Of a stretch of 46,588 nucleotides of DNA, positions 1 through 46,588 are shown piece after piece (positions within the stretch are counted from its first letter, which is position 1; each line of letters starts with the position of its first letter). Source of the stretch: Saccoglossus kowalevskii (lineage: Eukaryota; Hemichordata; Enteropneusta; Harrimaniidae); assembly GCF_000003605.2 (NCBI RefSeq), contig NW_003122588.1, forward strand, positions 1-46,588, read 5' to 3'. Under the pieces are notes generated by a model, which saw only the letters and a list, made by a program, of their open reading frames with translations, searched no databases and was not told where the DNA came from. The position numbers were made by a program, and so were the translations under genes.

Positions 1-409
1 GGCACGACAACCCCGCAGTTAAATTTTCAAAAACATTAAGTAAATGTATAGAAAATGTCCTATATAGAAAACGATTATCGCCATTGGGAACCGACAATTC
101 GAATACAAACAGCTTACAAAGTTGTGAAAACCGATTGCAAAGTTGGTAGATTCGATTGGGAATGTTACATATGATATTATACTGACGGGTCCTATAGTTA
201 AAAGCTCGAAAACAAGAATACATATTTCGTAAAATGCCATTAAAATAGTGTAGTGTTACTCGAAGTATGTAAAGGTCATAGGTCAATTCAAGAAGTAACT
301 TGTGCAAACGCTATCAATTTTAAAACAGTTTCAAACATTAAATAGCCATCAATTCAGCTAAATTTGAAATTACTTAAACAATAGTGTGGGTAGGTGATCG
401 AACAATGTT
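1..409 (+). repeat. Partial satellite unit at left edge
   Basis: The window opens at GGCACGACAACCCCGC inside segment B of a unit; segment C and the A+T-rich tail follow normally. AAAGCTCG near 199 and a substitution in AGCTAAATTTG near 356 are copy-specific. Confidence 0.95.
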
Positions 410-485
410 TAAAGTTAAGCTGATTCGGGCATGGTTAGTACTTGCATGGGAGACTACCTGAGTAAACCAGCTGGAGTAAATTTTT
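410..485 (+). pseudogene. 5S-derived fragment, copy 1
   Basis: Consensus sequence through box C (433-458) and T5. Preceded by ATGTT rather than ATGTC, as in copies 6, 13, 31 and 33. Confidence 0.88.
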
Positions 486-1365
486 GGTTGGTTCCATCAC
501 ATACATGTCAACGATATGAGGCAACGTTCGTGCATCATTTTTACTGTAATGTCAATTATTTATAGTAGAAAGACATTGAAATTTATGTATTTTTTCAAAT
601 TCATGGAAAGTTTTCGATTTTCCCTATTATTTTCAAAGAACAAGTTGTTGATGCGGTCGGCACATAGTGGGTTTTAGCTGTTAAATTACCGTAAAAAGTT
701 GTTCAAAGTGAACGCAAAGTTGTACAAAGTGATTGCAAAGTTTGTAGATGTATATGCATGTTTGACCTAACTTGTTGGCATATAGAAACCCGCAGTTGTA
801 AAGTCAAAAAATGAATAAAAGCCAGATAAAAGCAGCCTATATGAGCAGAGTGTCACATGAGCTGATTGACTGTAAAAATGACAGAAAACAGAGTGCACAG
901 TTGGTAAATGCGTTCGAAACGTTGGCGTGGCTGCTTGTATATTAAACGTACGTCATTGGCACGACAACCCCGCAGTTAAATTTTCAAAACATTAAGTAAG
1001 TGTATAGAAAATGTCCTATATAGAAACAGATTATCGCCACTGGGAACCGACAATTCGAATACAAACAGCTTACAAAGTTGTGAAAACCGATTGCAAAGTT
1101 GGTCGATTCGATTGGGAATGTTACATATGATATTATACTGACTGGTCCTATAGTTGAAAGTTCGAAAACAAGAATACATATTTCGTAAAATGCTGTTAAA
1201 ATAGAGTAGTTTTACTCGAAGTATGTAAAGGTCATAGGTCAATTCAAGAAGCAACTTGTGCAAACGCTATCAATTTTAAAACAGTTTCAAACATTAAATA
1301 GCCATCAATTCAGGTAAATTTCAAATTACTTAAACAATAGTGTGGGTAGGTGATCGAACAATGTC

Positions 1366-1442
1366 TAAAGTTAAGCTGATTCGGGCATGGTTAGTACTTG
1401 CATGGGAGACTACCTGAGTGAACTCAGCTGGAGTAAATTTTT
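1366..1442 (+). pseudogene. 5S-derived fragment, copy 2
   Basis: One inserted base and TAA to TGA change behind box C (GTGAACTCAGC). It otherwise resembles copy 16 and lies in an indel-rich stretch. Confidence 0.85.
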
Positions 1443-1770
1443 GGGTTGGGTTCCATCACATACATGTCAAAGATATGAGGCAACGTTCGTGCATTATTTT
1501 ACTGTAATGTCATTATTTATAGTAGAAAGACATGAAATTTATGTATTTTTTTTTCAAATCATGGAAAGTTTTCGATTTTCCCTATTATTTCAAAGAACAA
1601 GTGTTGATGCGGTCGGCACATAGTGCGTTTCGCTGTTAAATTACCGTAAAAAGTTGTTCAAAGTGAACGCAAAGTTGTACAAAGTGATTGCAAAGTTTGT
1701 AGATGTATATGCATGTTTGACCTAACTTGTTGGCATATAGATCCCCGCAGTTGTAAAGTCAAAAAACAAT
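1416..1770. other. Cluster of private indels
   Basis: At least eight single-base gains or losses, mostly in short homopolymers (for example GTCATTATT for GTCAATTATT, ACATGAAAT for ACATTGAAAT, ATCATGG for ATTCATGG), fall within about 350 bases, while neighbouring units have almost none. This looks like local consensus error rather than evolution. Confidence 0.6.
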
Positions 1771-2319
1771 AAAAGCCAGATAAAAGCAGCCTATATGAGC
1801 AGAGTGTCACATGAGCTGATTGACTGTAAAAATGACAGAAAACAGAGTGCACAGTTGGTAAAAGCGTTCGAAACGTTGGCGTGGCTGCTTGTATATTTAA
1901 CCTAAGTCATTGGCACGACAACCCCGCAGTAAAATTTTCAAAACATTAAGTAAATGTATAGAAAATGTCCTATATAGAAACATATTATCGCCACTGGGAA
2001 CCGACAATTCGAATACAAACAGCTTACAAAGTTGCGAAAACCGATTGCAAAGTTGGTAGATTCGATTGGGAATGTTACATATGATATTATACTGACGGGT
2101 CCTATAGTTGAAATTTCGAAAAGAAGAATACATGTTTCGTAAAATGCCGTTAAAATAGCGTAGTGTTACTCGAAGAATGTAGAGGTCATAGGTCAATTCA
2201 AGAAGTAACTTGTGCAAACGCTATCAATTTTAAAACAGTTTCAAACATTAAATAGCCATCAATTCAGGTAAATTTCAAATTACTTAAACAATAGTGTTGG
2301 TAGGTGATCGAACAATGTC

Positions 2320-2395
2320 TAAAGTTAAGCTGATTCGGGCATGGTTAGTACTTGCATGGGAGACTACCTGAGTAAACCAGCTGGAGTAAATTTTT
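2320..2395 (+). pseudogene. 5S-derived fragment, copy 3
   Basis: Consensus through T5. The upstream flank reads GTGTTGGTAGG, with one change. Confidence 0.88.
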
Positions 2396-3276
2396 GGTTG
2401 GTTCCATCACATACATGTCAAAGATATGAGGCAACGTTTGTGCATCATTTTTACTGTAATGTCAATTATTTATAGTAGAAAGACATTGAAATTTATGTAT
2501 TTTTTTCAAATTCATGGAAAGTTTTCGATTTTCCCTATTATTTTCAAAGAACAAGTTGTTGATGCGGTCGGCACATAGTGCGTTTTCGCTGTTAAATTAC
2601 CGTAAAAAGTTGTTCAAAGTGAACGCAAAGTTGTACAAAGTGATTGCAAAGTTTGTAGATGTATATGCATGTTTGACCTAACTTGTTGGCATATAGAAAC
2701 CCGCAGTTGTAAAGTCAAAAAATGAATAAAAGCCAGATAAAAGCAGCCTATATGAGCAGAGTGTCACATGAGCTGATTGACTGTAAAAATGACAGAAAAC
2801 AGAGTGCACAGTTGGTAAAAGCGTTCGAAACGTTGGCGTGGCTGCTTGTATATTTAACCTAAGTCATTGGCACGACAACCCCGCAGTAAAATTTTCAAAA
2901 CATTAAGTAAATGTATAGAAAATGTCCTATATAGAAACATATTATCGCCACTGGGAACCGACAATTCGAATACAAACAGCTTACAAAGTTGTGAAAACCG
3001 ATTGCAAAGTTGGTAGATTCGATTGGGAATGTTACATATGATATTATACTGACGGGTTCTATAGTTGAAAGTTCGAAAACAAGAATACATATTTCGTAAA
3101 ACGCCGTTAAAATAGAGTAGTTTTACTCGAAGCATGTAAAGGTCATAGGTCAATTCAAGAAGTAACTTGTGCAAACGCTATCAATTTTAAAACAGTTTCA
3201 AACATTAAATAGCCATCAATTCAGGCAAATTTCAAATTACTTAAACAATAGTGTGGGTAGGTGATCGAACAATGTC

Positions 3277-3352
3277 TAAAGTTAAGCTGATTCGGGCATG
3301 GTTAGTACTTGCATGGGAGACTACCTGAGTAAACCAGCTGGAGTAAATTTTT
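3277..3352 (+). pseudogene. 5S-derived fragment, copy 4
   Basis: Consensus through T5. The following spacer (TTGCAATTTATG, CATGTAAAG) matches the unit of copy 30. Confidence 0.88.
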
Positions 3353-4233
3353 GGTTGGTTCCATCACATACATGTCAAAGATATGAGGCAACGTTTGTGC
3401 ATCATTTTTACTGTAATGTCAATTATTTATAGTAGAAAGACATTGCAATTTATGTATTTTTTTCAAATTCATGTAAAGTTTTCGATTTTCCCTATTATTT
3501 TCAAAGAACAAGGTGTTGATGCGGTCGGCACATAGTGCGTTTTAGCTGTTAAATTACCGTAAAAAGTTGTTCAAAGTGAACGCAAAGTTGTACAAAGTGA
3601 TTGCAAAGTTTGTAGATGTATATGCACGTTTGACCTAACTTCTTGGCATATAGAAACCCGCAGTTGTAAAGTCAAAAAATGAATAAAAGCCAGATAAATG
3701 CAGCCTATATGAGCAGAGTGTCACATGAGCTGATTGACTGTAAAAATGACAGAAAACAGAGTGCACAGTTGGTAAAAGCGTTCGAAACGTTGGCGTGGCT
3801 GCTTGTATATTTGTATATAGTCATTGGCACGACAACCCCGCAGTTAAATTTTCAAAACATTAAGTAAATGTATAGAAAATGTCCTATATAGAAACAGATT
3901 ATGGCCACTGGGAACCGACAATTCGAATACAAACAGCTTACAAAGTTGTGAAAACCGATTGCAAAGTTGGTAGATTCGATTGGGAATGTTACATATGATA
4001 TTATACTGACGGGTTCTATAGTTGAAAGTTCGAAAACAAGAATACATATTTCGTAAAATGCCGTTAAAATAGAGTAGTTTTACTCGAAGCATGTAAAGGT
4101 CATAGGTCAATTCAAGAAGTAACTTGTGCAAACGCTATCAATTTTAAAACAGTTTCAAACATTAAATAGCCATCAATTCAGGTAAATTTCAAATTACTTA
4201 AACAATAGTGTGGGTAGGTGATCGAACAATGTC

Positions 4234-4309
4234 TAAAGTTAAGCTGATTCGGGCATGGTTAGTACTTGCATGGGAGACTACCTGAGTAAACCAGCTGGAG
4301 TAAATTTTT
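4234..4309 (+). pseudogene. 5S-derived fragment, copy 5
   Basis: Consensus through T5; box C at 4257-4282. Confidence 0.88.
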
Positions 4310-5190
4310 GGTTGGTTCCATCACATACATGTCAAAGATATGAGGCAACGTTCGTGCATCATTTTTACTGTAATGTCAATTATTTATAGTAGAAAGACAT
4401 TGAAATTTATATATTTTTTTCAAATTCATGGAAAGTTTTCGATTTTCCCTATTATTTTCAAAGAACAAGGTGTTGATGCGGTCGGCACATAGTGCGTTTT
4501 AGCTGTTAAATTACCGTAAATAGTTGTTCAAAGTGAACGCAAAGTTGTACAAAGTGATTGCAAAGTTTGTAGATGTATATGCATGTTTGACCTAACTTGT
4601 TGGCATATAGAAACCCGCAGTTGTAAAGTCAAAAAATGAATAAAAGCCAGATAAAAGCAGCCTATATGAGCAGAGTGTCACATGAGCTGATTGACTGTAA
4701 AAATGACAGAAAACAGAGTGCACAGTTGGTAAAAGCGTTCGAAACGTTGGCGTGGCTGCTTGTATATTTAACCTAAGTCATTGGCACGACAACCCCGCAG
4801 TTAAATTTTCAAAACATTAAGTAAATGTATAGAAAATGTCCTATATAGAAACAGATTATGGCCACTGGGAACCGACAATTCGAATACAAACAGCTTACAA
4901 AGTTGTGAAAACCGATTGCAAAGTTGGTAGATTCGATTGGGAATGTTACATATGATATTATACTGACGGGTCCTATAGTTGAAAGTTCGAAAACAAGAAT
5001 ACATATTTCGTAAAATGCCGTTAAAATAGCGTAGTGTTACTCGAAGCATGTAAAGGTCATAGGTCAATTCAAGAAGTAACTTGTGCAAACGCTATCAATT
5101 TTAAAACAGTTTCAAACATTAAATAGCCATCAATTCAGGTAAATTTGAAATTCCTTAAACAATAGTGTGGGTAGGTGATCGAACAATGTT

Positions 5191-5266
5191 TAAAGCTAAG
5201 CTGAATAGGGCATGGTTAGTACTTGCATGGGAGACTACCTGAGTAAACCAGCTGGAGTAAATTTTT
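5191..5266 (+). pseudogene. 5S-derived fragment, copy 6
   Basis: Box A reads AAGCTAAGC and the next stretch is GAATAGGGC instead of GATTCGGGC. The GAATAGGGC change is shared with copy 13. Box C is intact relative to the array consensus. Confidence 0.86.
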
Positions 5267-6145
5267 GGTTGGTTCCATCACATACATGTCAACGATATGA
5301 GGCAACGTTCGTGCATCATTTTTACTGTAATGTCAGTTATTTATTGTAGAAAGACATTGAAATTTATGTATTTTTTCAAATTCATGGACAGTTTTCGATT
5401 TTCCCTATTATTTTCAAAGAACAAGTTTTTGATGCGGTCGGCACATAGTGCGTTTTAGCTGTTAAATTACCGTAAAAATTGTTCAAAGTGAACGCAAAGT
5501 TGTACAAAGTGATTGCAAAGTTTGTAGATGTACATGCGTGTTTGACCTAACTTGTTGGCATATAGAAACCCGCAGTTGTAAAGTCAAAAAATGAATAAAA
5601 GCCAGATAAAAGCAGCCTATATGAGGAGAGTGTCACATGAGCTGATTGACTGTAAAAATGACAGAAAACAGAGTGCACAGTTGGTAAAAGCGTTCGAAAC
5701 GTTGGCGTGGCTGCTTGTATATTTAACCTAAGTCATTGGCACGACAAACCCGCAGTTAAATTTTCAAAACATTAAGTAAATGTATAGAAAATGTCCTATA
5801 TAGAAACAGATTATCGCCACTGGGAACCAACAATTCGAATACAAACAGCTTACAAAGTTGTGAAAACCGATTGCAAAGTTGGTAGATTCGATTGGGAATG
5901 TTACATATGATATTATACTGACGGGTCCTATAGTTGAAAGTTCGAAAACAAGAATACATATTTCGTAAAATGCCGTTAAAATAGAGTAGTTTTACTCGAA
6001 GCATGTAAAGGTCATAGGTCAATTCAAGAAGTAACTTGTGCAAACGCTATCAATTTTAAAACAGTTTCAAACATTAAATAGCCATCAATTCAGGTAAATT
6101 TCAAATTACTTAAACAATAGTGTGGGTAGGTGATCGAACAATGTC

Positions 6146-6221
6146 TAAAGTTAAGCTGATTCGGGTATGGTTAGTACTTGCATGGGAGACTACCTGAGTA
6201 AACCAGCTGGAGTAAATTTTT
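6146..6221 (+). pseudogene. 5S-derived fragment, copy 7
   Basis: GGGTATGG replaces GGGCATGG before box C, a subtype mark shared with copies 8, 19 and 21. Confidence 0.87.
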
Positions 6222-7102
6222 GGTTGGTTCCATCACATACATGTCAAAGATATGAGGCAACGTTCGTGCATCATTTTTACTGTAATGTCAATTATTTATA
6301 GTAGAAAGACATTGCAATTTATGTATTTTTTTCAAATTCATGGAAAGTTTTCGATTTTCCCTATTATTTTCAAAGAACAAGGTGTTGATGCGGTCGGCAC
6401 ATAGTGCGTTTTAGCTGTTAAATTACCGTAAAAAGTTGTTCAAAGTGAACGCAAAGTTGTACAAAGTGATTGCAAAGTTTGTAGATGTATATGCATGTTG
6501 GACCTAACTTGTTGGCATATAGAAACCCGCAGTTGTAAAGTCAAAAAATGAATAAAAGCCAGATAAAAGCAGCCTATATGAGCAGAGTGACACATGAGCT
6601 GATTGACTGTAAAAATGACAGAAAACCGAGTGCACAGTTGGTAAAAGCGTTCGAAACGTTGACATGGCTGCTTGTATATTAAACCTACGTCATTGGCACG
6701 ACAACCCCGCAGTTAAATTTTCAAAACATTAAGTAAATGTATAGAAAATGTCCTATATAGAAACAGATTATCGCCACTGGGAACCGACAATTCGAATACA
6801 AACAGCTTACAAAGTTGTGAAAACCGATTGCAAAGTTGGTAGATTCGATTGGGAATGTTACATATGATATTATACTGACGGGTCCTATAGTTGAAAGTTC
6901 GAAAACAAGAATACATATTTCGTAAAATGCCGTTAAAATAGAGTAATTTTACTCGAAGCATGTAAAGGTCATAGGTCAATTCAAGAAGTAACTTGTGCAA
7001 ACGCTATCAATTTTAAAACAGTTTCAAACATTAAATAGCCATCAATTCAGGTAAATTTCAAATTACTTAAACAATAGTGTGGGTAGGTGATCGAACAATG
7101 TC

Positions 7103-7178
7103 TAAAGTTAAGCTGATTCGGGTATGGTTAGTACTTGCATGGGAGACTACCTGAGTAAACCAGCTGGAGTAAATTTTT
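7103..7178 (+). pseudogene. 5S-derived fragment, copy 8
   Basis: GGGTATGG subtype; otherwise consensus. Confidence 0.87.
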
Positions 7179-8060
7179 GGTTGGTTCCATCACATACATG
7201 TCAAAGATATGAGGCAACGTTCGTGCATCATTTTTACTGTAATGTCAATTATTTATAGTAGAAAGACATTGCAATTTATGTATTTTTTTTCAAATTCATG
7301 GAAAGTTTTCGATTTTCCCTATTATTTTCAAAGAACAAGGTGTTGATGCGGTCGGCACATAGTGCGTTTTAGCTGTTAAATTACCGTAAAAAGTTGTTCA
7401 AAGTGAACGCAAAGCTGTACAAAGTGATTGCAAAGTTTGTAGATGTATATGCATGTTTGACCTAACTTGTTGGCATATAGAAACCCGCAGTTGTAAAGTC
7501 AAAAAATGAATAAAGCCAGATAAAAGCAGCCTATATGAGCAGAGTGTCACATGAGCTGATTGACTGTAAAAATGACAGAAAACAGAGTGCACAGTTGGTA
7601 AAAGCGTTCGAAACGTTGGCATGGCTGCTTGTATATTAAACCTACGTCATTGGCACGACAACCCCGCAGTTAAATTTTCAAAACATTAAGTAAATGTATA
7701 GAAAATGTCCTATATAGAAACAGATTATCGCCACTGGGAACCGACAATTCGAATACAAACAGCTTACAAAGTTGTGAAAACCGATTGCAAAGTTGGTAGA
7801 TTCGATTGGGAATGTTACATATGATATTATACTGACGGGTCCTATAGTTGAAAGTTCGAAAACAAGAATACATATTTCGTAAAATGCCGTTAAAATAGAG
7901 TAGTTTTACTCGAAGCATGTAAAGGTCATAGGTCAATTCAAGAAGTAACTTGTGCAAACGCTATCAATTTTAAAACAGTTTCAAACATTAAATAGCCATC
8001 AATTCAGGCAAATTTCAAATTACTTAAACAATAGTGTGGGTAGGTGATCGAACAATGTCT

Positions 8061-8108
8061 AAAGTTAAGCTGATTCGGGCATGGTTAGTACTTGCATGGG
8101 AGACTACC
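8061..8108 (+). promoter_or_regulatory. Pol III type 1 internal control region remnant (box A, IE, box C)
   Basis: Box A of the 5S control region corresponds to 8061-8076; its first nine bases AAGTTAAGC are intact but the following AGGGT is changed to TGATT. The intermediate element falls around 8078-8084. Box C corresponds to 8083-8108 and matches the canonical animal sequence at 23 of 26 positions by hand alignment. In 5S genes these elements bind TFIIIA and recruit TFIIIC, TFIIIB and RNA polymerase III, with the start about 50 bp upstream of box A. Whether the altered box A still works here is unknown. Confidence 0.6.
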
Positions 8109-8130
8109 TGAGTAAACCAGCTGGAGTAAA

Positions 8131-8135
8131 TTTTT
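8131..8135 (+). terminator. T5 Pol III-type terminator
   Basis: A run of five T on the non-template strand follows the 5S-like 3' end directly, where 5S genes end transcription. Nearly every copy keeps it. Exceptions are the copies at 28140 (TGTTT), 30054 and 34826 (TTTT). Confidence 0.55.
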
Positions 8136-8239
8136 GGTTGGTTCCATCACATACATGTCAAAGATATGAGGCAACGTTCGTGCATCATTTTTACTGTAAT
8201 GTCAATTATTTATAGTAGAAAGACATTGAAATTTATGTA

Positions 8240-8246
8240 TTTTTTT
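8240..8246 (+). terminator. Secondary poly-T run in spacer
   Basis: A T7 run lies about 105 bp beyond the first terminator in the context TATG-T(n)-CAAATTC. Its length varies from about 6 to 9 between copies and it is interrupted by C near 33100 and 34062. It could stop read-through Pol III transcripts on the + strand, but may be a plain homopolymer. Confidence 0.25.
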
Positions 8247-8332
8247 CAAATTCATGGAAAGTTTTCGATTTTCCCTATTATTTTCAAAGAACAAGTTGTT
8301 GATGCGGTCGGCACATAGTGCGTTTTAGCTGT

Positions 8333-8513
8333 TAAATTACCGTAAAAAGTTGTTCAAAGTGAACGCAAAGTTGTACAAAGTGATTGCAAAGTTTGTAGAT
8401 GTATATGCATGTTTGACCTAACTTGTTGGCATATAGAAACCCGCAGTCGTAAAGTCAAAAAATGAATAAAAGCCAGATAAAAGCAGCCTATATGAGCAGA
8501 GTGTCACATGAGC
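8333..8513 (+). repeat. Internal ~180-bp segment A
   Basis: This is the first of three related segments inside the unit. Landmarks are GTAAAAA at 8342, GATTGCAAAGTT at 8382, TTTGACCTAA, TTGGCA at 8426, CCCGCAGT and AAAGTCAAAAAATGAATA. Each of these recurs in segment B or C at a fixed offset. Boundaries are approximate. Confidence 0.7.
8353..8394 (+). repeat. Two 21-bp direct subrepeats in segment A
   Basis: TTCAAAGTGAACGCAAAGTTG at 8353-8373 is followed directly by a second copy at 8374-8394 with four substitutions. The core is CAAAGT. This short periodicity (two helical turns) is kept in nearly all units. Confidence 0.75.
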
Positions 8514-8693
8514 TGATTGACTGTAAAAATGACAGAAAACAGAGTGCACAGTTGGTAAAAGCGTTCGAAACGTTGGCGTGGCTGCTTGTATATTTAACCT
8601 AAGTCATTGGCACGACAACCCCACAGTAAAATTTTCAAAACATTAAGTAAATGTATAGAAAATGTCCTATATAGAAACATATTATCGCCACTG
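8514..8693 (+). repeat. Internal ~180-bp segment B
   Basis: This segment aligns to segment A at a constant offset of 181: GTAAAAA at 8523 against 8342, and TTGGCA at 8607 against 8426, the latter followed in both by CCCGCAGT. Over 55 ungapped positions starting one base before GTAAAAA I count 33 identities (checked on the first unit). Around TTGGCA, 16 of 20 positions match (TTTRACCTAA..TTGGCA). This is a diverged tandem duplicate, not chance. Confidence 0.7.
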
Positions 8694-8872
8694 GGAACCG
8701 ACAATTCGAATACAAACAGCTTACAAAGTTGCGAAAACCGATTGCAAAGTTGGTAGATTCGATTGGGAATGTTACATATGATATTATACTGACGGGTCCT
8801 ATAGTTGAAATTTCGAAAAGAAGAATACATGTTTCGTAAAATGCCGTTAAAATAGCGTAGTGTTACTCGAAG
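8694..8872 (+). repeat. Internal ~180-bp segment C
   Basis: This segment aligns to segment A at an offset of about 358, twice 179. GATTGCAAAGTT at 8740 matches that at 8382 and is followed in both by GTAGAT. An AGTTGAAA-type landmark at 8803 matches 8445, followed in both by a GAATA landmark. It is less similar to B than to A by eye. A fourth segment further on could not be shown. Confidence 0.55.
8724..8756 (+). repeat. CAAAGTTG motifs 21 bp apart in segment C
   Basis: CAAAGTTG occurs at 8724 and again at 8745, exactly 21 bp apart, with the second followed by GTAGAT as in segment A. This matches the subrepeat period in A and supports common descent of A and C. Confidence 0.6.
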
Positions 8873-9016
8873 AATGTAGAGGTCATAGGTCAATTCAAGA
8901 AGTAACTTGTGCAAACGCTATCAATTTTAAAACAGTTTCAAACATTAAATAGCCATCAATTCAGGTAAATTTCAAATTACTTAAACAATAGTGTGGGTAG
9001 GTGATCGAACAATGTC

Positions 9017-9092
9017 TAAAGTTAAGCTGATTCGGGCATGGTTAGTACTTGCATGGGAGACTACCTGAGTAAAAAAGCTGGAGTAAATTTTT
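9017..9092 (+). pseudogene. 5S-derived fragment, copy 10
   Basis: GTAAAAAAGCTGG replaces GTAAACCAGCTGG behind box C, removing the CC that corresponds to a conserved 5S helix position. Copy 9 is the reference copy. Confidence 0.86.
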
Positions 9093-9974
9093 GGTTGGTT
9101 CCATCACATACATGTCAAAGATATGAGGCAACGTTCGTGCATCATTTTTACTGTAATGTCAATTATTTATAGTAGAAAGACATTGAAATTTATGTATTTT
9201 TTTTCAAATTCATGGAAAGTTTTCGATTTTCCCTATTATTTTCAAAGAACAAGTTGTTGATGCGGTCGGCACATAGTGTGTTTTAGCTGTTAAATTACCG
9301 TAAAAAGTTGTTCAAAGTGAACGCAAAGTTGTACAAAGTGATTGCAAAGTTTGTAGATGTATATGCATGTTTGACCTAACTTGTTGGCATATAGAAACCC
9401 GCAGTTGTAAAGTCAAAAAATGAATAAAAGCCAGATAAAAGCAGCCTATATGAGCAGAGTGTCACATGAGCTGATTGACTGTAAAAATGACAGAAAACAG
9501 AGTGCACAGTTGGTAAAAGCGTTCGAAACGTTGGCGTGGCTGCTTGTATATTTAACCTAAGTCATTGGCACGACAACCCCACAGTAAAATTTTCAAAACA
9601 TTAAGTAAATGTATAGAAAATGTCCTATATAGAAACATATTATCGCCACTGGGAACCGACAATTCGAATACAAACAGCTTACAAAGTTGTGAAAACCGAT
9701 TGCAAAGTTGGTAGATTCGATTGGGAATGTTACATATGATATTATACTGACGGGTCCTATAGTTGAAATTTCGAAAAGAAGAATACATGTTTCGTAAAAT
9801 GCCGTTAAAATAGCGTAGTGTTACTCGAAGAATGTAGACGTCATAGGTCAATTCAAGAAGTAACTTGTGCAAACGCTATCAATTTTAAAACAGTTTCAAA
9901 CATTAAATAGCCATCAATTCAGGTAAATTTCAAATTACTTAAACAATAGTGTGGGTAGGTGATCGAACAATGTA

Positions 9975-10050
9975 TAAAGTTAAGCTGATTCGGGCATGGT
10001 TAGTACTTGCATGGGAGACTACCTGAGTAAACCAGCTGGAGTACATTTTT
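9975..10050 (+). pseudogene. 5S-derived fragment, copy 11
   Basis: Preceded by TGTA, and GTACATTTTT replaces GTAAATTTTT. The downstream spacer has TTTTGCTATT near 10185, a three-to-one base change shared only with copy 45. Confidence 0.87.
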
Positions 10051-10930
10051 GGTTGGTTCCATCACATACATGTCAAAGATATGAGGCAACGTTCGTGCAT
10101 CATTTTTACTGTAATGTCAATTATTTATAGTAGAAAGACATTGAAATTTATGTATTTTTTTCAAATTCATGGAAAGTTTTCGATTTTGCTATTATTTTCA
10201 AAGAACAAGGTGTTGATGCGGTCGGCACATAGTGCGTTTTAGCTGTTAAATTACCGTAAAAAGTTGTTCAAAGTGAACGCAAAGTTGTACAAAGTGATTG
10301 CAAAGTTTGTAGATGTATATGCATGTTTGCCCTAACTTGTTGGCATATAGAAACCCGCAGTTGTAAAGTCAAAAAATGAATAAAAGCCAGATAAAAGCAG
10401 CCTATATGAGCAGAGTGTCATATGAGCTGATTGACTGTAAAAATGACAGAAAACAGAGTGCACAGTTGGTAAAAGCGTTCGAAACGTTGGCGTGGCTGCT
10501 TGTATATTTAACCTAAGTCATTGGCACGACAACCCCGCAGTAAAATTTTCAAAACATTAAGTAAATGTATAGAAAATGTCCTATATAGAAACAGATTATC
10601 GCCACTGGGAACCGACAATTCGAATACAAACAGCTTACAAAGTTGTGAAAACCGATTGCAAAGTTGGTAGATTCGATTGGGAATGTTACATATGATATTA
10701 TACTGACTGGTCCTATATTTGAAATTTCGAAAACAAGAATACATATTTCGTAAAATGCTGTTATAATAGCGTAGTGTTACTCGAAGCATGTAGAGGTCAT
10801 AGGTCAATTCAAGAAGTAACCTGTGCAAACGCTATCAATTTTAAAACAGTTTCAAACATTAAATAGCCATCAATTCAGGTAAATTTCAAATTACTTAAAC
10901 AATAGTGTGGGTAGGTGATCGAACAATGTC

Positions 10931-11006
10931 TAAAGTTAAGCTGATTCGGGCATGGTTAGTACTTGCATGGGAGACTACCTGAGTAAACCAGCTGGAGTAA
11001 ATTTTT
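10931..11006 (+). pseudogene. 5S-derived fragment, copy 12
   Basis: Consensus. The following CCATACCATAC and AGTAGTACAAAG marks link this unit to those of copies 39, 40 and 42. Confidence 0.88.
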
Positions 11007-34698: not shown

Positions 34699-34896
34699 GT
34701 AAAGGTCAATTCAAGAAGTAACTTGTGCAAACGCTATCATTTTAAACAGTTTCAACATTAAATAGCCATCAATTCAGCAATTTCAAATTACTTAAACATA
34801 GTGTGGGTAGTGATCGAACAATGTCTAAAGTTAAGCTGATCGGGCATGGTAGTACTTGCATGGAAGACTACTGAGTAACCAGCTGGAGTAAATTTT
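34699..34896. other. Cluster of private deletions
   Basis: More than ten single-base losses in 200 bases, mostly in runs of two or more identical bases, plus loss of ATAGGTC in the repeated GGTCATAGGTC. They shorten this unit to 945 bp and damage 5S copy 37. The pattern fits an unpolished long-read junction. Confidence 0.65.
34826..34896 (+). pseudogene. 5S-derived fragment, copy 37, deletion-rich
   Basis: Only 71 bases: single-base losses in GATTCGGGC, GGTTAG, CTACCTG, GTAAACC and the T run, plus GGAAGAC in box C. The losses are probably technical. Confidence 0.83.
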
Positions 34897-35777: not shown

Positions 35778-35853
35778 TAAAGTTCAGCTGATTTGGGGAT
35801 GGTTAGTACTTGCAAGGGAGACTACCTGAGTGAACCAGCTGGAGTAAATTTTT
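35778..35853 (+). pseudogene. 5S-derived fragment, copy 38
   Basis: Diverged: AGTTCAGC, GATTTGGGGATGG, TGCAAGGG in box C and GTGAACCAG. The first, second and last changes recur in copy 44. Confidence 0.85.
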
Positions 35854-36735
35854 GGTTGGTTCCATCACATACATGTCAAAGATATGAGGCAACGTTCGTG
35901 AATCATTTTTACCGTAATGTCAATTATTTATAGTAGAAAGACATTGAAATTTATGTATTTTTTTTCAAATTCATGGAAAGTTTTCGATTTTCCCTATTAT
36001 TTTCAAAGAACAAGTTGTTGATGCGGTCGGCACATAGTGCGTTTTAGCTGTTAAATTACCGTAAAAAGTTGTTCAAAGTGAACGCAAAGTTGTACAAAGT
36101 GATTGCAAAGTTTGTAGATGTATATGCATGTTTGACCTAACTTGTTGGCATATAGAAACCCGCAGTTGTAAAGTCAAAAAATGAATAAAAGCCAGATAAA
36201 AGCAGCCTATATGAGCAGAGTGTCATATGAGCTGATTGACTGTAAAAATGACAGACAACAGAGTGCACAGTTGGTAAAAGCGTTCGAAACGTTGGCGTGG
36301 CTGCTTGTATATTTAACCTAAGTCATTGGCACGACAACCCCGCAGTAAAATTTTCAAAACATTAAGTAAATGTATAGAAAATGTCCTATATAGAAACAGA
36401 TTATCGCCACTGGGAACCGACAATTCGAATACAAACAGCTTACAAAGTTGTGAAAACCGATTGCAAAGTTGGTAGATTCGATTGGGAATGTTACATATGA
36501 TATTATACTGACGGGTCCTATATTTGAAATTTCGAAAACAAGAATACATATTTCGTAAAATGCTGTTATAATAGCGTAGTGTTACTCGAAGCATGTAGAG
36601 GTCATAGGTCAATTCAAGAAGTAACCTGTGCAAACGCTATCAATTTTAAAACAGTTTCAAACATTAAATAGCCATCAATTCAGGTATATTTCAAATTACT
36701 TAAACAATAGTGTGGGTAGGTGATCGAACAATGTC

Positions 36736-36811
36736 TAAAGTTAAGCTGATTCGAGCATGGTTAGTACTTGCATGGGAGACTACCTGAGTAAACCAGCTGG
36801 AGTAAATTTTT
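36736..36811 (+). pseudogene. 5S-derived fragment, copy 39
   Basis: GATTCGAGC variant, shared with copy 45. CCATACCATAC follows, as in copies 12, 40 and 42. Confidence 0.87.
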
Positions 36812-37691
36812 GGTTGGTTCCATACCATACATGTCAAAGATATGAGGTAACGTTCGTGCATCATTTTTACTGTAATGTCAATTATTTATAGTAGAAAGAC
36901 ATTGAAATTTATGTATTTTTTTCAAATTCATGGAAAGTTTTCGATTTTCCCTATTATTTTCAAAGAACAATTTGTTGATGCGGTCGGCACATAGTGTGTT
37001 TTAGCTGTTAAATTGCCGTAAAAGTTGTTCAAAGTGAACGCAAAGTTGTACAAAGTGATTGCAAAGTTTGTAGATGTATATGCATGTTTGACCTAACTTG
37101 TTGGCATATAGAAACCCGCAGTTGTAAAGTCAAAAAATGAATAAAAGCCAGATAAAAGCAGCCTATATGAGCAGAGTGTCATATGAGATGATTGACTGTA
37201 AAAATGACAGACAACAGAGTGCACAGTTGGTAAAAGCGTTCGAAACGTTGGCGTGGCTGCTTGTATATTTAACCTAAGTCATTGGCACGACAACCCCGCA
37301 GTAAAATTTTCAAAACATTAAGTAAATGTATAGAAAATGTCCTATATAGAAACAGATTATCGCCACTGGGAACCGACAATTCGAATACAAACAGCTTACA
37401 AAGTTGTGAAAACCGATTGCAAAGTTGGTAGATTCGATTGGGAATGTTACATATGATATTATACTGACGGGTCCTATATTTGAAATTTCGAAAACAAGAA
37501 TACATATTTCGTAAAATGCTGTTATAATAGCGTAGTGTTACTCGAAGCATGTAGAGGTCATAGGTCAATTCAAGAAGTAACCTGTGCAAACGCTATCAAT
37601 TTTAAAACAGTTTCAAACATTAAATAGCCATCAATTCAGGTAAATTTCAAATTACTTAAACAATAGTGTGGGTAGGTGATCGAACAATGTC

Positions 37692-37767
37692 TAAAGTTAA
37701 GCTGATTCGGGCATGGTTAGTACTTGCATGGGAGACTACCTGAGTAAACCAGCTGGAGTAAATTTTT
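37692..37767 (+). pseudogene. 5S-derived fragment, copy 40
   Basis: Consensus, with CCATACCATAC downstream. Confidence 0.88.
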
Positions 37768-38647
37768 GGTTGGTTCCATACCATACATGTCAAAGATATG
37801 AGGTAACGTTCGTGCATCATTTTTACTGTAATGTCAATTATTTATAGTAGAAAGACATTGAAATTTATGTATTTTTTTCAAATTCATGGAAAGTTTTCGA
37901 TTTTCCCTATTATTTTCAAAGAACAAGTTGTTGATGCGGTCGGCACATAGTGTGTTTTAGCTGTTAAATTGCCGTAAAAGTTGTTCAAAGTGAACGCAAA
38001 GTAGTACAAAGTGATTGCAAAGTTTGTAGATGTATATGCATGTTTGACCTAACTTGTTGGCATATAGAAACCCGCAGTTGTAAAGTCAAAAAATGAATAA
38101 AAGCCAGATAAAAGCAGCCTATATGAGGAGAGTGTCACATGAGCTGATTGACTGTAAAAATGACAGAAAACAGAGTGCACAGTTGGTAAAAGCGTTCGAA
38201 ACGTTGGCGTGGCTGCTTGTATATTTAACCTAAGTCATTGGCACGACAACCCCGCAGTAAAATTTTCAAAACATTAAGTAAATGTATAGAAAATGTCCTA
38301 TATAGAAACAGATTATCGCCACTGGGAACCGACAATTCGAATACAAACAGCTTACAAAGTTGTGAAAACCGATTGCAAAGTTGGTAGATTCGATTGGGAA
38401 TGTTACATATGATATTATACTGACGGGTCCTGTATTTGAAATTTCGAAAACAAGAATACATATTTCGTAAAATGCTGTTAAAATAGCGTAGTGTTACTCG
38501 AAGCATGTAGAGGTCATAGGTCAATTCAAGAAGTAACCTGTGCAAACGCTATCAATTTTAGAACAGTTTCAAACATTAAATAGCCATCAATTCATGTAAA
38601 TTTCAAATTACTTAAACAATAGTGTGGGTATGTGATCGAACAATGTC

Positions 38648-38723
38648 TAAAGTTAAGCTGATTCGGGCATGGTTAGTACTTGCATGGGAGACTACCTGAG
38701 TAAACCAGCTGGAGTTAATTTTT
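38648..38723 (+). pseudogene. 5S-derived fragment, copy 41
   Basis: GGAGTTAATTTTT replaces GGAGTAAATTTTT. The unit also has GTATGTGATCG, TACATTTCAAAG and TATATCCATG, shared with copy 43. Confidence 0.87.
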
Positions 38724-39605
38724 GGTTGGTTCCATCACATACATTTCAAAGATATGAGGCAACGTTCGTACATCATTTTTACTGTAATGTCAATTATTTA
38801 TAGTAGAAAGACATTGAAATTTATGTATTTTTTTTCAAATTCATGGAAAGTTTTCGATTTTCCTTATTATTTTCAAAGAACAAGTTGTTGATGCGGTCGG
38901 CACATAGTGCGTTTTAGCTGTTAAATTACCGTAAAAAGTTGTTCAAAGTGAACTCAAAGTTGTACAAAGTGATTGCAAAGTTTGTAGATGTATATCCATG
39001 TTTGACCTAACTTGTTTGCATATAGAAACCCGCAGTTGTAAAGTCAAAAAATGAATAAAAGCCAGATAAAAGCAGCCTATATGAGCAGAGTGTCACATGA
39101 GCTGATTGACTGTAAAAATGACAGAAAACAGAGTGCACACTTGGTAAAAGCGTTCGAAACGTTGGCGTGGCTGCTTGTATATTTAACCTAAGTCATTGGC
39201 ACGACAACCCCGCAGTAAAATTTTCAAAACATTAAGTAAATGTATAGAAAATGTCCTATATAGAAACAGATTATCGCCACTGGAAACCGACAATTCGAAT
39301 ACAAACAGCTTACAAAGTTGTGAAAACCGATTGCAAAGTTGGTAGATTCGATTGGGAATGTTACATATGATATTATACTGACTGGTCCTATATTTGAAAT
39401 TTCGAAAACAAGAATACATATTTCGTAAAATGCTGTTATAATAGCGTAGTGTTACTCGAAGCATGTAGAGGTCATAGGTCAATTCAAGAAGTAACCTGTG
39501 CAAACGCTATCAATTTTAAAACAGTTTCAAACATTAAATAGCCATCAATTCAGGTAAATTTCAAATTACTTAAACAATAGTGTGGGTAGGTGATCGAACA
39601 ATGTC

Positions 39606-39681
39606 TAAAGTTAAGCTGATTCGGGCATGGTTAGTACTTGCATGGGAGACTACCTGAGTAAACCAGCTGGAGTAAATTTTT
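39606..39681 (+). pseudogene. 5S-derived fragment, copy 42
   Basis: Consensus, with CCATACCATAC downstream. Confidence 0.88.
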
Positions 39682-40561
39682 GGTTGGTTCCATACCATAC
39701 ATGTCAAAGATATGAGGTAACGTTCGTGCATCATTTTTACTGTAATGTCAATTATTTATAGTAGAAAGACATTGAAATTTATGTATTTTTTTCAAATTCA
39801 TGGAAAGTTTTCGATTTTCCCTATTATTTTCAAAGAACAAGTTGTTGATGCGGTCGGCACATAGTGTGTTTTAGCTGTTAAATTGCCGTAAAAGTTGTTC
39901 AAAGTGAACGCAAAGTAGTACAAAGTGATTGCAAAGTTTGTAGATGTATATGCATGTTTGACCTAACTTGTTGGCATATAGAAACCCGCAGTTGTAAAGT
40001 CAAAAAATGAATAAAAGCCAGATAAAAGCAGCCTATATGAGGAGAGTGTCACATGAGCTGATTGACTGTAAAAATGACAGAAAACAGAGTGCACAGTTGG
40101 TAAAAGCGTTCGAAACGTTGGCGTGGCTGCTTGTATATTTAACCTAAGTCATTGGCACGACAACCCCGCAGTAAAATTTTCAAAACATTAAGTAAATGTA
40201 TAAAAAATGTCCTATATAGAAACAGATTATCGCCACTGGGAACCGACAATTCGAATACAAACAGCTTACAAAGTTGTGAAAACCGATTGCAAAGTTGGTA
40301 GATTCGATTGGGAATGTTACATATGATATTATACTGACGGGTCTTATAGTTGAAAGTTCGAAAAGAAGAATACATATTTCGTAAAATGCCGTTAAAATAG
40401 CGTAGTGTTACTCAAAGCATGTAGAGGTCATAGGTCAATTCAAGAAGTAACTTGTGCAAACGCTATCAATTTTAAAACAGTTTCAAACATTAAATAGCCA
40501 TCAATTCATGTAAATTTCAAATTACTTAAACAATAGTGTGGGTATGTGATCGAACAATGTC

Positions 40562-40637
40562 TAAAGTTAAGTTGATTCGGGCATGGTTAGTACTTGCATG
40601 GGAGACTACCTGAGTAAACCAGCTGGAGTTAATTTTT
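40562..40637 (+). pseudogene. 5S-derived fragment, copy 43
   Basis: AAGTTGATTCGGG and GGAGTTAATTTTT; sister of copy 41 two units earlier. Confidence 0.87.
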
Positions 40638-41518
40638 GGTTGGTTCCATCACATACATTTCAAAGATATGAGGCAACGTTCGTGCATCATTTTTACTGTA
40701 ATGTCAATTATTTATAGTAGAAAGCCATTGAAATTTATGTATTTTTTTTCAAATTCATGGAAAGTTTTCGATTTTCCCTATTATTTTCAAAGACAAGTTG
40801 TTGATGCGGTCGGCACATAGTGCGTTTTAGCTGTTAAATTACCGTAAAAAGTTGTTCAAAGTGAACTCAAAGTTGTACAAAGTGATTGCAAAGTTTGTAG
40901 ATGTATATCCATGTTTGACCTAACTTGTTTGCATATAGAAACCCGCAGTTGTAAAGTCAAAAAATGAATAAAAGCCAGATAAAAGCAGCCTATATGAGCA
41001 GAGTGTCACATGAGCTGATTGACTGTAAAAATGACAGAAAACAGAGTGCACACTTGGTAAAAGCGTTCGAAACGTTGGCGTGGCTGCTTGTATATTAAAC
41101 CTACGTCATTGGCACGACAACCTCGCAGTAAAATTTTCAAAACATTAAGTAAATGTATAGAAAATGTCCTATATAGAAATAGATTATCGCCACTGGGAAC
41201 GGACAATTCGAATACAAACAGCGTACAAAGTTGTGAAAACCGATTGCAAAGTTGGTAGATTCGATTGGGAATGTTACATATGATATTATACTGACAGGTC
41301 TTATAGTTGAAAGTTCGAAAAGAAGAATACATATTTCGTAAAATGCCGTTAAAATAGCGTAGTGTTACTCAAAGCATGTAGAGGTCATAGGTCAATTCAA
41401 GAAGTAACTTGTGCAAACGCTATCAATTTTAAAACAGTTTCAAACATTAAATAGCCATCAATTCATGTAAATTTCAAATTACTTAAACAATAGTGTGGGT
41501 AAGTGATCGAACAATGTC

Positions 41519-41594
41519 TAAAGTTCAGCTGATTTGGGGATGGTTAGTACTTGCATGGGAGACTACCTGAGTGAACCAGCTGGAGTAAATTTTT
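41519..41594 (+). pseudogene. 5S-derived fragment, copy 44
   Basis: AGTTCAGC, GATTTGGGGATGG and GTGAACCAG as in copy 38. This copy heads the truncated unit. Confidence 0.86.
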
Positions 41595-41841
41595 GGTTGG
41601 TTCCATCACATACATGTCAAAGATATGAGGCAACGTTCGTGAATCATTTTTACTGTAATGTCAATTATTTATAGTAGAACGACATTGAAATTTATGTATT
41701 TTTTTTCAAATTCATGGAAAGTTTTCGATTTTCCCTATTATTTTCAAAGAACAAGTTGTTGATGCGGTCGGCACATAGTGCGTTTTAGCTGTTAAATTAC
41801 CGTAAAAAGTTGTTCAAAGTGGTAGGTGATCGAACAATGTC
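41519..41841 (+). repeat. Truncated satellite unit (323 bp)
   Basis: The unit runs normally to TTGTTCAAAGT at 41820, inside segment A, then jumps directly to GGTAGGTGATCG of the next unit's 5S flank. About 634 bp (rest of A, all of B and C, and the A+T-rich tail) are missing. Only one or two bases are shared at the junction, so this looks like an end-joining type deletion or out-of-register exchange, or a misassembly of the array. Confidence 0.85.
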
Positions 41842-41917
41842 TAAAGTTAAGCTGATTCGAGCATGGTTAGTACTTGCATGGGAGACTACCTGAGTAAACC
41901 AGCTGGAGTAAATTTTT
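41842..41917 (+). pseudogene. 5S-derived fragment, copy 45
   Basis: GATTCGAGC variant. The downstream TTTTGCTATT mark (near 42051) is shared with copy 11. Confidence 0.87.
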
Positions 41918-42797
41918 GGTTGGTTCCATCACATACATGTCAAAGATATGAGGCAACGTTCGTGCATCATTTTTACTGTAATGTCAATTATTTATAGTAG
42001 AAAGACATTGAAATTTATGTATTTTTTTCAAATTCATGGAAAGTTTTCGATTTTGCTATTATTTTCAAAGAACAAGGTGTTGATGCGGTCGGCACATAGT
42101 GCGTTTTAGCTGTTAAATTACCGTAAAAAGTTGTTCAAAGTGAACGCAAAGTTGTACAAAGTGATTGCAAAGCTTGTAGATGTATATGCATGTTTGACCT
42201 AACTTGTTGGCATATAGAAACCCGCAGTCGTAAAGTCAAAAAATGAATAAAAGCCAGATAAAAGCAGCCTATATGAGCAGAGTGTCACATGAGCTGATTG
42301 ACTGTAAAAATGACAGAAAACAGAGTGCACAGTTGGTAAAAGCGTTCGAAACGTTGGCGTGGCTGCTTGTATATTTAACCTAAGTCATTGGCACGACAAC
42401 CCCGCAGTTAAATTTTCAAAACATTAAGTAAATGTATAGAAAATGTCCTATATAGAAACAGATTATCGTCACTGGGAACCGACAATTCGAATACAAACAG
42501 CTTACAAAGTTGTGAAAACCGATTGCAAAGTTGGTAGATTCGATTGGGAATGTTACATATGATATTATACTGACGGGTTCTATAGTTGAAAGTTCGAAAA
42601 CAAGAATACATATTTCGTAAAATGCCGTTAAAATAGAGTAGTTTTACTCGAAGCATATAAAGGTCATAGGTCAATTCAAGAAGTAACTTGTGCAAACGCT
42701 ATCAATTTTAAAACAGTTTCAAACATTAAATAGCCATCAATTCAGGCAAATTTCAAATTACTTAAACAATAGCGTGGGTAGGTGATCGAACAATGTC

Positions 42798-42873
42798 TAA
42801 AGTTAAGCTGATTCGGGCATGGTTAGTACTTGCATGGGAGACTACCTGAGTAAACCAGCTGGAGTAAATTTTT
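42798..42873 (+). pseudogene. 5S-derived fragment, copy 46
   Basis: Consensus; the flank reads AGCGTGGG. The unit is nearly identical to the next one. Confidence 0.88.
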
Positions 42874-43754
42874 GGTTGGTTCCATCACATACATGTCAAA
42901 GATATGAGGCAACGTTTGTGCATCATTTTTACTGTAATGTCAATTATTTATAGTAGAAAGACATTGAAATTTATGTATTTTTTTCAAATTCATGGAAAGT
43001 TTTCGATTTTCCCTATTATTTTCAAAGAACAAGTTGTTGATGCGGTCGGCACATAGTGCGTTTTCGCTGTTAAATTACCGTAAAAAGTTGTTCAAAGTGA
43101 ACGCAAAGTTGTACAAAGTGATTGCAAAGTTTGTAGATGTATATGCATGTTTGACCTAACTTGTTGGCATATAGAAACCCGCAGTTGTAAAGTCAAAAAA
43201 TGAATAAAAGCCAGATAAAAGCAGCCTATATGAGCAGAGTGTCACATGAGCTGATTGACTGTAAAAATGACAGAAAACAGAGTGCACAGTTGGTAAAAGC
43301 GTTCGAAACGTTGGCGTGGCTGCTTGTATATTTAACCTAAGTCATTGGCACGACAACCCCGCAGTTAAATTTTCAAAACATTAAGTAAATGTATAGAAAA
43401 TGTCCTATATAGAAACAGATTATCGCCACTGGGAACCGACAATTCGAATACAAACAGCTTACAAAGTTGTGAAAACCGATTGCAAAGTTGGTAGATTCGA
43501 TTGGGAATGTTACATATGATATTATACTGACGGGTTCTATAGTTGAAAGTTCGAAAACAAGAATACATATTTCGTAAAACGCCGTTAAAATAGAGTAGTT
43601 TTACTCGAAGCATGTAAAGGTCATAGGTCAATTCAAGAAGTAACTTGTGCAAACGCTATCAATTTTAAAACAGTTTCAAACATTAAATAGCCATCAATTC
43701 AGGCAAATTTCAAATTACTTAAACAATAGTGTGGGTAGGTGATCGAACAATGTC

Positions 43755-43830
43755 TAAAGTTAAGCTGATTCGGGCATGGTTAGTACTTGCATGGGAGACT
43801 ACCTGAGTAAACCAGCTGGAGTAAATTTTT
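43755..43830 (+). pseudogene. 5S-derived fragment, copy 47
   Basis: Consensus through T5. Confidence 0.88.
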
Positions 43831-44710
43831 GGTTGGTTCCATCACATACATGTCAAAGATATGAGGCAACGTTTGTGCATCATTTTTACTGTAATGTCAA
43901 TTATTTATAGTAGAAAGACATTGAAATTTATGTATTTTTTTCAAATTCATGGAAAGTTTTCGATTTTCCCTATTATTTTCAAAGAACAAGTTGTTGATGC
44001 GGTCGGCACATAGTGCGTTTTCGCTGTTAAATTACCGTAAAAAGTTGTTCAAAGTGAACGCAAAGTTGTACAAAGTGATTGCAAAGTTTGTAGATGTATA
44101 TGCATGTTTGACCTAACTTGTTGGCATATAGAAACCCGCAGTTGTAAAGTCAAAAAATGAATAAAAGCCAGATAAAAGCAGCCTATATGAGCAGAGTGTC
44201 ACATGAGCTGATTGACTGTAAAAATGACAGAAAACAGAGTGCACAGTTGGTAAAAGCGTTCGAAACGTTGGCGTGGCTGCTTGTATATTTAACCTAAGTC
44301 ATTGGCACGACAAACCCGCAGTTAAATTTTCAAAACATTAAGTAAATGTATAGAAAATGTCCTATATAGAAACAGATTATCGCCACTGGGAACCAACAAT
44401 TCGAATACAAACAGCTTACAAAGTTGTGAAAACCGATTGCAAAGTTGGTAGATTCGATTGGGAATGTTACATATGATATTATACTGACGGGTCCTATAGT
44501 TAAAAGTTCGAAAACAAGAATACATATTTCGAAAATGCCGTTAAAATAGCGTAGTGTTACTCGAAGCATGTAAAGGTCATAGGTCAATTCAAGAAGTAAC
44601 TTGTGCAAACGCTATCAATTTTAAAACAGTTTCAAACATTAAATAGCCATCAATTCAGGTAAATTTCAAATTACTTAAACAATAGTGTGGGTAGGTGATC
44701 GAACAATGTC

Positions 44711-44786
44711 TAAAGTTAAGCTGATTCGGGCATGGTTAGTACTTGCATGGGAGACTACCTGAGTAAACCAGCTGGAGTAAATTTTT
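44711..44786 (+). pseudogene. 5S-derived fragment, copy 48
   Basis: Consensus. The upstream TTTCGAAAATGCCG (loss of TA near 44531) is shared with the unit at 27960, so that deletion is a true inherited variant. Confidence 0.88.
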
Positions 44787-45668
44787 GGTTGGTTCCATCA
44801 CATACATGTCAAAGATATGAGGCAACGTTCGTGCATCATTTTTACTGTAACGTCAATTATTTATAGTAGAAAGACATTGAAATTTATGTATTTTTTTCAA
44901 ATTCATGGAAAGTTTTCGATTTTCCCTATTATTTTCAAAGAACAAGGTGTTGATGCGGTCGGCACATAGTGCGTTTTAGCTGTTAAATTACCGTAAAAAG
45001 TTGTTCAAAGTGAACGCAAAGTTGTACAAAGTGATTGCAAAGTTTGTAGATGTATATGCACGTTTGACCTAACTTGTTGGCATATAGAAACCCGCAGTTG
45101 TAAAGTCAAAAAATGAATAAAAGCCAGATAAAAGCAGCCTATATGAGCAGAGTGTCACATGAGCTGATTGACTGTAAAAATGACAGAAAACAGAGTGCAC
45201 AGTTGGTAAAAGCGTTCGAAACGTTGGCGTTGCTGCTTTGTATATTTAACCTAAGTCATTGGCACGACAACCCAGCAGTAAAATTTTGAAAACATTAAGT
45301 AAATGTATAGAAATTGTCCCGTATAGAAGCAGATTATCGCCACTGGGAACCGACAATTCGAATACAAACAGCTTACAAAGTTGTGAAAACCGATTGCAAA
45401 GTTGGTAGATTCGATTGGGAATGTTAAATATGATATTATACTGACGGGTCCTATAGTTGAAAGTTCGAAAACAAGAATACATATTTCGTAAAATGCCGTT
45501 AAAATAGCGTAGTGTTACTCAAAGCATGTAGAGGTCATAGGTCAATTCAAGAAGTAACTTGTGCAAACGCTATCAATTTTAAAACAGTTTCAAACATTAA
45601 ATAGCCATCAATTCATATAAATTTCAAATTACTTAAACAATAGTGTGGGTATGTGATTGAACAATGTC

Positions 45669-45744
45669 TAAAGTTAAGCTGATTCGGGCATGGTTAGTAC
45701 TTGCATGGAAGACTACCTGAGTAAACCAGCTGGAGTAAATTTTT
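45669..45744 (+). pseudogene. 5S-derived fragment, copy 49
   Basis: ATGGAAGAC in box C; otherwise consensus. The unit that follows is cut by the window end at 46588, about 40 bases before the next expected 5S-derived segment. Confidence 0.87.
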
Positions 45745-46588
45745 GGTTGGTTCCATCACATACATGTCAAAGATATGAGGCAACGTTCATGCACCATTTT
45801 TACTGTAATGTCAATTATTTATAGTAGAAAGACATTGAAATTTATGTATTTTTTCAAATTCATGGAAAGTTTTCGATTTTCCTTATTATTTTCAAAGAAC
45901 AAGTTGTTGATGCGGTCGGCACATAGTGCGTTTTAGCTGTTAAATTACCGAAAAAAGTTGTTCAAAGTGAACGCAAAGTTGTACAAAGTGATTGCAAAGT
46001 TTGCAGATGTATATGCATGTTTGACCTAACTTGTTGGCATATAGACACCCGCAGTTGTAAAGTCAAAAAATAAATAAAAGCCAGATGAAAGCAGCCTATA
46101 TTAGCAGAGTGTCACATGAGCTGACTGACTGTAAAAATGATAGAAAACAGCGTGCACAGTTGGAAAAAGCGTTCGAAACGTTGGCGTTGCTGCTTGTATA
46201 TTTAACCTAAGTCATTGGCACGACAACCCCGCAGTAAAATTTTCAAAACATTAAGTAAATGTACAGAAAATGTCCTATATAGAAACAGATTATCGCCACT
46301 GGGAACCGACAATTCGAATACAAACAGCTTACAAAGTTGTGAAAACCGATTGCAAAGTTGGTAGATTCGATTGGGAATGTTACATATGATATTATACTGA
46401 CGGGTCCTATAGTTGAAAGTTCGAAAACAAGAATACATATTTCGTAAAATGCCGTTAAAATAGCCTAGTGTTACTCAAAGCATGTAGAGGTCATAGTCAA
46501 TTCAAGAAGTAACTTGTGCAAACGCTATCAATTTTAAACAGTTTCAAACATTAAATAGCCATCAATTCATGTAAATTTCAAATTACTT

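Follow-up and report, generated by a model that had tools for sequence, protein, structure and literature searches.

The 46,588-base pair (bp) contig NW_003122588.1 (C1534) of the hemichordate Saccoglossus kowalevskii, referred to here as a whole as the window, is filled by one satellite of ~957-bp units, each of which appears to carry a complete but decayed 5S ribosomal RNA (rRNA) gene. Comparison within and beyond the window indicates that the satellite is of 5S origin, that its C box is conserved and its terminator retained, and that the fold of the 5S RNA has been lost. On balance, we favour a 5S-derived satellite that still binds TFIIIA and TFIIIC, with or without the production of a short RNA polymerase III (Pol III) RNA. 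The 957-bp array alone is too narrow a frame for this element, which by its sequence is a branch of a superfamily of several unit lengths, present beside a separate 216-bp repeat.

A tandem array of near-identical units

The initial annotation had described a satellite of more than 46 kb with a 5S-derived segment in each of 49 units, and the counts bear this out.

1..46588, forward strand: tandem array of the ~957-bp satellite, whole contig, 49 cores at ~957-bp spacing
1..956, forward strand: first unit (phase arbitrary)
41110..42388, forward strand: fused unit, consensus 1-711 joined to 389-957, ~635 bp missing
45691..45713, forward strand: last of the 49 C-box cores, with 1 mismatch

Allowing up to 4 mismatches, the core TGGTTAGTACTTGCATGGGAGAC occurs 49 times in the window (44 copies are exact), and exact matches to AAGTTAAGC, GGTTAGTACTTG, and ATGGGAGAC number 42, 47, and 45, respectively. 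Core-to-core spacing is 943-959 bp with a single exception of 323 bp, which arises because two units are fused at 41110-42388; the joined ends have a few bases in common. The unit consensus measures 957 bp, mean divergence from it is 1.9%, and the G+C content of the window is 35%. Head-to-tail, near-identical units place the array among 5S-derived satellites. The same family, ~96-99% identical to the consensus, was found in the three stretches read from another contig (C3707; 128,967 bp), and from their lengths the two contigs together may hold about 184 units. Protein coding was rejected, the longest stop-to-stop frame in a tripled unit being 96 amino acids.

Each unit contains a decayed 5S gene

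In the first unit, the parts derived from 5S are placed as follows (nucleotide (nt) numbers are those of the 5S gene).

364..481, forward strand: 5S-derived segment in register with nt 1-118 of the species' own 5S (gapless comparison); recurs in each unit
412..454, forward strand: best preserved part, nt 49-91
432..454, forward strand: 23-nt core TGGTTAGTACTTGCATGGGAGAC of the intermediate element (IE) and C box, identical to nt 69-91 of own 5S
481..485, forward strand: T5 run where 5S has its terminator; candidate Pol III terminator

The relation to 5S, which the initial annotation had left to a comparison with the species' own gene, is beyond doubt. Without gaps, the unit matches own 5S at 40/43 positions of nt 49-91, which we take to span the A box, the IE and the start of the C box, at 14/27 positions of nt 92-118, and at 4/5 of the terminator T's; preservation of the first two blocks differs strongly (Fisher P 1e-4). 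Across nt 1-48 the match is 20/48, a value exceeded by none of 957 registers and reached by 0.3% of them. The local score of the unit against own 5S is 71, whereas the best of 500 mononucleotide shuffles scores 26, and a blastn search with own 5S finds the same satellite at 93% identity over 43 nt (E 2e-13). These values, together with the consensus of related copies, establish the host's 5S as the source of part of the unit.

The annotation had assigned this part to the 3' half of 5S. Its derivation stands, but the label is too narrow: nt 21-48 match as well. In a consensus of 15 related rows, agreement with own 5S is 19/28 at nt 21-48, 39/43 at nt 49-91, 14/27 at nt 92-118, and 5/5 at the terminator T's, and the 25/48 matches at nt 1-48 correspond to a shuffle P of 5e-5. 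These rows were not fetched by the C box. Two are family consensuses, one of which, for 729-bp units, goes back to contigs that the C box had first led to; when this one is dropped, the remaining 14 rows give 18/28 at nt 21-48 and P 2e-4 at nt 1-48. Since nt 21-48 match own 5S in the related-copy consensus, the capture involved a whole 5S gene. The 5S part is thus best described as a whole decayed gene (nt ~21-118 and terminator), of which only nt 49-91 are near-perfect. The annotation's description of the rest of the unit also needs changing: much of it consists of three old ~185-bp subrepeats.

On the Rfam 5S model RF00001, which the annotation had put forward as a check, the segment fell short: zero matches reached the gathering score and no 5S gene was called. 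A permissive search of positions 1-6000 listed five of the six segments there, at 17-19.6 bits (gathering 38) over model positions 1-120, with E values of 2-9.9 for 4227 families. Permissive matches to bantam, mir-287, and Avalong_thermometer, all far below gathering, were taken as chance. Sub-threshold RF00001 scores and the lack of a 5S-like fold mark the segment as non-functional as a 5S gene.

The host's true 5S genes lie in separate arrays of ~1139-bp units (C3485) and ~1580-bp units (C2212, C3801); the 47 matches scored reach 105-113 bits with RF00001. The two classes (read at L003 and L001, on C2212 and C3485) have different spacers and nearly identical genes. Gene conversion from these functional arrays, rather than selection on the satellite, could have kept the 5S core alike, and the identity of the consensus 23-nt core to own 5S is what such conversion would leave. 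However, it should also have restored nt 92-118 and nt 1-48, and the spacers of both classes resemble the unit no more than shuffles do in best local score, so kinship with these spacers was discarded as well; we regard conversion as very improbable.

A distinct ~216-bp tandem repeat carries a nearly full-length 5S, with 58-99 bits for RF00001 in 14 copies at three loci (L060, L064, and L074 on contigs C404, C576, and C1640) and a spacer of ~98 bp. It could represent a third 5S class or a satellite resembling PcP190 of frogs. Comparable ~216-bp spacing was seen at L061, L062, L065, L066, L068, and L072.

One branch of a superfamily

Genome-wide counts used patterns from the window consensus with at most 3 mismatches, for which reversed-pattern controls gave 0. 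The 35-mer containing the C box has 2,699 places and the 35-mer at 112-146 has 2,973, compared with 222 for the 33-mer just upstream of the C-box 35-mer and 171 for the 35-mer at 601-635, although a single large sister family may supply the bulk of all four counts, which are not independent events. At least two blocks are therefore widely shared, whereas the other two stretches tested occur almost only in the window family. Were each of the 2,699 places to represent one unit of 0.73-0.96 kb, the superfamily would occupy ~2.0-2.6 Mb, or 0.34-0.45% of the 572-Mb assembly.

A pattern built on the C box but matching neither true 5S nor the window consensus occurs exactly at 291 places (control 0), and stretches at some of the 100 places listed were read. 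On C590, C115, and C883 they comprise ~729-bp units that are homologous lengthwise to the 957-bp unit, with 65.6% identity in one pairwise alignment. C1338 carries a 941-bp unit that is ~76% like that of the window, and C1003, C1414, and C1747 hold diverged copies. The 957-bp array thus belongs to a superfamily whose units measure ~729, 941, and 957 bp and which also includes diverged copies. At L084 (C594), such copies lie on opposite strands within 1.7 kb, and at L071 (C1747) a diverged piece of ~350 bp whose C box is exact adjoins an unrelated ~40-bp tandem repeat.

The second shared block and the subrepeats lie outside the 5S part.

112..146, forward strand: widely shared CAAAGTTG block, not 5S-derived
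112..303, forward strand: subrepeat M3, approximate borders
692..877, forward strand: subrepeat M1, approximate borders
878..1067, forward strand: subrepeat M2, approximate borders, crossing the arbitrary unit border

The unit contains three degenerate ~185-bp subrepeats, M1-M3. When M1-M3 of the 957-bp and 729-bp consensuses were compared, all 15 pair scores exceeded the maximum of 100 shuffles, the tightest being 52 vs 45 and 53 vs 46. Between the families, each subrepeat finds its best partner in its namesake (M1-M1, M2-M2, M3-M3), and therefore the triplication preceded the split of the two. The CAAAGTTG...GCAAAGTTGG block, genome-wide as common as the C box, recurs in degenerate form in the subrepeats.

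C box and terminator are retained, the RNA fold is not

Loci picked by the C box are unfit for testing its conservation. A 16-mer outside the 5S part, with 484 places (control 0), was used instead, and 14 stretches were fetched from among the 100 places listed. In twelve of these the C box differs at no more than 6/23 positions; in L091 it shows 7-8 mismatches, and in L083 no C box was found at up to 8. Whole-unit alignment of these loci to the 957-bp consensus gives a C-box identity of 0.854 against 0.753 for the unit, and only 4/957 windows do better. These four cluster at -318 to -310, next to the search anchor and in the CAAAGTTG block. With the 729-bp consensus, the values are 0.875 and 0.772, and 0/727 windows are higher. 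This alignment is the unbiased test, whereas all 15 rows of the related-copy consensus have at most 6 C-box mismatches, making block conservation among them a biased one. In 60 full units of the 957-bp family, taken from the window and C3707, C-box divergence is 0.51% vs 2.12% for the unit, with 3.7% of windows lower.

In 20 of 21 copies, a run of four or more T's begins 14-34 nt past the C box (27 nt in own 5S), compared with 15% of background positions, and is retained though the surrounding sequence changes. This test covered copies with at most 6 C-box mismatches, five of the 21 coming from four loci that the C box had identified; L083, L086, L087, and L091 were omitted, and L082 and one copy of L070 were lost to edge limits. 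The C box and downstream T-run of a type 1 Pol III promoter are hence in place as far as sequence can tell. Twenty predicted transcripts fold no better than dinucleotide shuffles (z -1.45 to +1.12; own 5S, -3.0), and a structured RNA was rejected. As C box and T-run are kept while the fold is shuffle-like, promoter contact and terminator appear to have been retained and the RNA fold lost.

Several observations weigh against continued factor binding. Besides the low RF00001 scores, the 43-nt control region, taken as a whole, shows no drop in variability relative to the unit: 48% of windows are lower among the window units (unit 44, of 323 bp, excluded; unit 49 trimmed to 957 bp; unit 45 aligned poorly, at 0.78), and 41% among the 60 units of the window and C3707. 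In 11 units of a 729-bp array, the C box itself is no less variable, with 59-62% of windows lower. The A box of the window resembles that of 5S, whereas it is degenerate in several families, among them the 729-bp one. The copies are not independent because they share ancestry, and since the non-5S block is equally widespread, the C box is not uniquely kept, which rules out conservation of the C box only.

These points also feed the main rival, an inert satellite in which a dead 5S pseudogene is carried passively, arrays change by unequal exchange, and the C box seems conserved since the families that spread happened to retain it. Average polymorphism of the whole control region, and of the C box in the 729-bp array, fits this explanation, as do the equally widespread non-5S block and the chance that the 2,699 places stem mostly from one sister family. 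It sits poorly with the high C-box rank in the 14 loci selected independently of that box, with the low C-box divergence in 60 units, and with T-runs that hold the terminator place amid changing sequence. We consider an inert satellite rather unlikely, though it deserves serious weight.

The 14 loci also bear on an origin as a non-autonomous retroelement with a 5S promoter (SINE3, or a terminal-repeat retrotransposon in miniature such as Cassandra or Ajax) that turned tandem, the unit then corresponding to a long terminal repeat (LTR) plus internal part. Like these elements, the satellite is a repeat carrying 5S promoter boxes (excerpts of PMC7215508 and PMC10886601). Cassandra LTRs keep the 5S promoter and terminator and form tandem arrays, as stated in part of PMC7215508, and in Ajax LTRs just box A, IE, and box C remain, according to a section of PMC10886601. 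Diverged copies sit in large contigs, and similarity to the 957-bp consensus starts at 104-108 in five of the 14 loci. On the other hand, the remaining starts and the far ends vary among the loci, which leaves a transposon with fixed ends unsupported, and many diverged loci carry at least two copies in tandem. Unlike in Cassandra and Ajax, no LTR pair was seen in the unit, although tandem units cannot separate LTR from internal part; the internal repeats are the three ~185-bp subrepeats. We consider a retroelement origin improbable.

Discussion

The IE/C-box core is the main TFIIIA contact. We propose that a complete 5S rRNA gene would have been captured into an older ~185-bp tandem repeat, and that the composite unit would then have been amplified and split into a satellite superfamily, with the 957-bp array as one homogenised branch. 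Since capture, decay would have affected the 5S RNA fold and the remainder of the gene, but spared the IE/C-box core and the T-run terminator. The units would most likely still bind TFIIIA and TFIIIC, with two possible outcomes: they could give rise to a ~120-nt unstructured Pol III transcript, or, as TFIIIC sites, they could position the arrays close to the nucleolus or the 5S clusters, or silence them there. Factor binding, transcription, and nuclear position are predictions drawn from the sequence.

A more specific and, in our view, tentative and unlikely variant is one in which C box, terminator, and the non-5S box form a selected protein-binding module across fast-changing copies, i.e. 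a 'TFIIIA-box' satellite. The CENP-B box, kept in mammalian centromere satellites, provides a parallel. If true, such a module might provide a shared nuclear address beside the 5S or nucleolar compartment, or a short Pol III chromatin RNA.

Satellites of 5S origin are well established; examples are PcP190 and, reportedly, satellites of Hoplias and of a Plantago B chromosome. PcP190 of hyloid frogs has ~190-bp units with a 120-bp 5S-like region ~70% like 5S, and transcription confined to that part was considered and is unsupported in the sections of PMC11675491 that treat it. As far as those sections go, the satellite described here shares with PcP190 its tandem 5S-derived organisation, a conserved 5S-like part, a changing remainder, and several types per genome (PMC11675491). 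Unlike in PcP190, units are 0.7-0.96 kb long, only nt 49-91 are near-perfect, and the rest holds three subrepeats, so the 957-bp unit does not share the PcP190 layout; nearest to it in this genome is only the separate 216-bp repeat. 5SHindIII, the centromeric satellite of Hoplias malabaricus, is reportedly likewise 5S-derived and tandem. The annotation had suggested that the family may be undescribed: no description was found in the open-access literature searched, and the suggestion is unproven as Dfam and Repbase lay outside that search.

The proposed mode of action is borrowed from mouse 5S pseudogenes which, in the portion of PMC3261910 concerned with them, keep the A and C boxes and have lost the RNA fold, some binding TFIIIC and lying at the nucleolus. 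The satellite resembles them in the lost fold and the retained internal factor boxes, whereas the mouse pseudogenes, in the same account, are dispersed single copies outside an array (PMC3261910).

Why the 5S-like part of such satellites persists while the rest changes is a general question, and several diverged families of one 5S-derived satellite in a single genome allow footprinting. The footprint obtained here points to constraint on the TFIIIA contact and the terminator, not on the RNA. It also adds a hemichordate lineage to the animals with 5S-derived satellites.

Separately from the satellite, a mitochondrial contig was read (C4830; 17,037 bp; L057 and L058). COX1 lies on the strand opposite most other protein genes, and open frames and tRNA calls, with names read from the frames, give the order ATP6-COX3-G-ND3-R-ND4L-ND4-H-S-ND5-CYTB. 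The contig encodes a tRNA with anticodon TTT and has AAA at lysine places. ATA occurs at several COX1 and CYTB places where isoleucine is presumably the usual residue. Taken together with the gene order, these features suggest a hemichordate close to Saccoglossus. Excerpts of PMC2697986 describe nd5-cob adjacency for hemichordates and Xenoturbella, ATA as isoleucine for echinoderms and hemichordates, and AAA as lysine for Saccoglossus and not for echinoderms.

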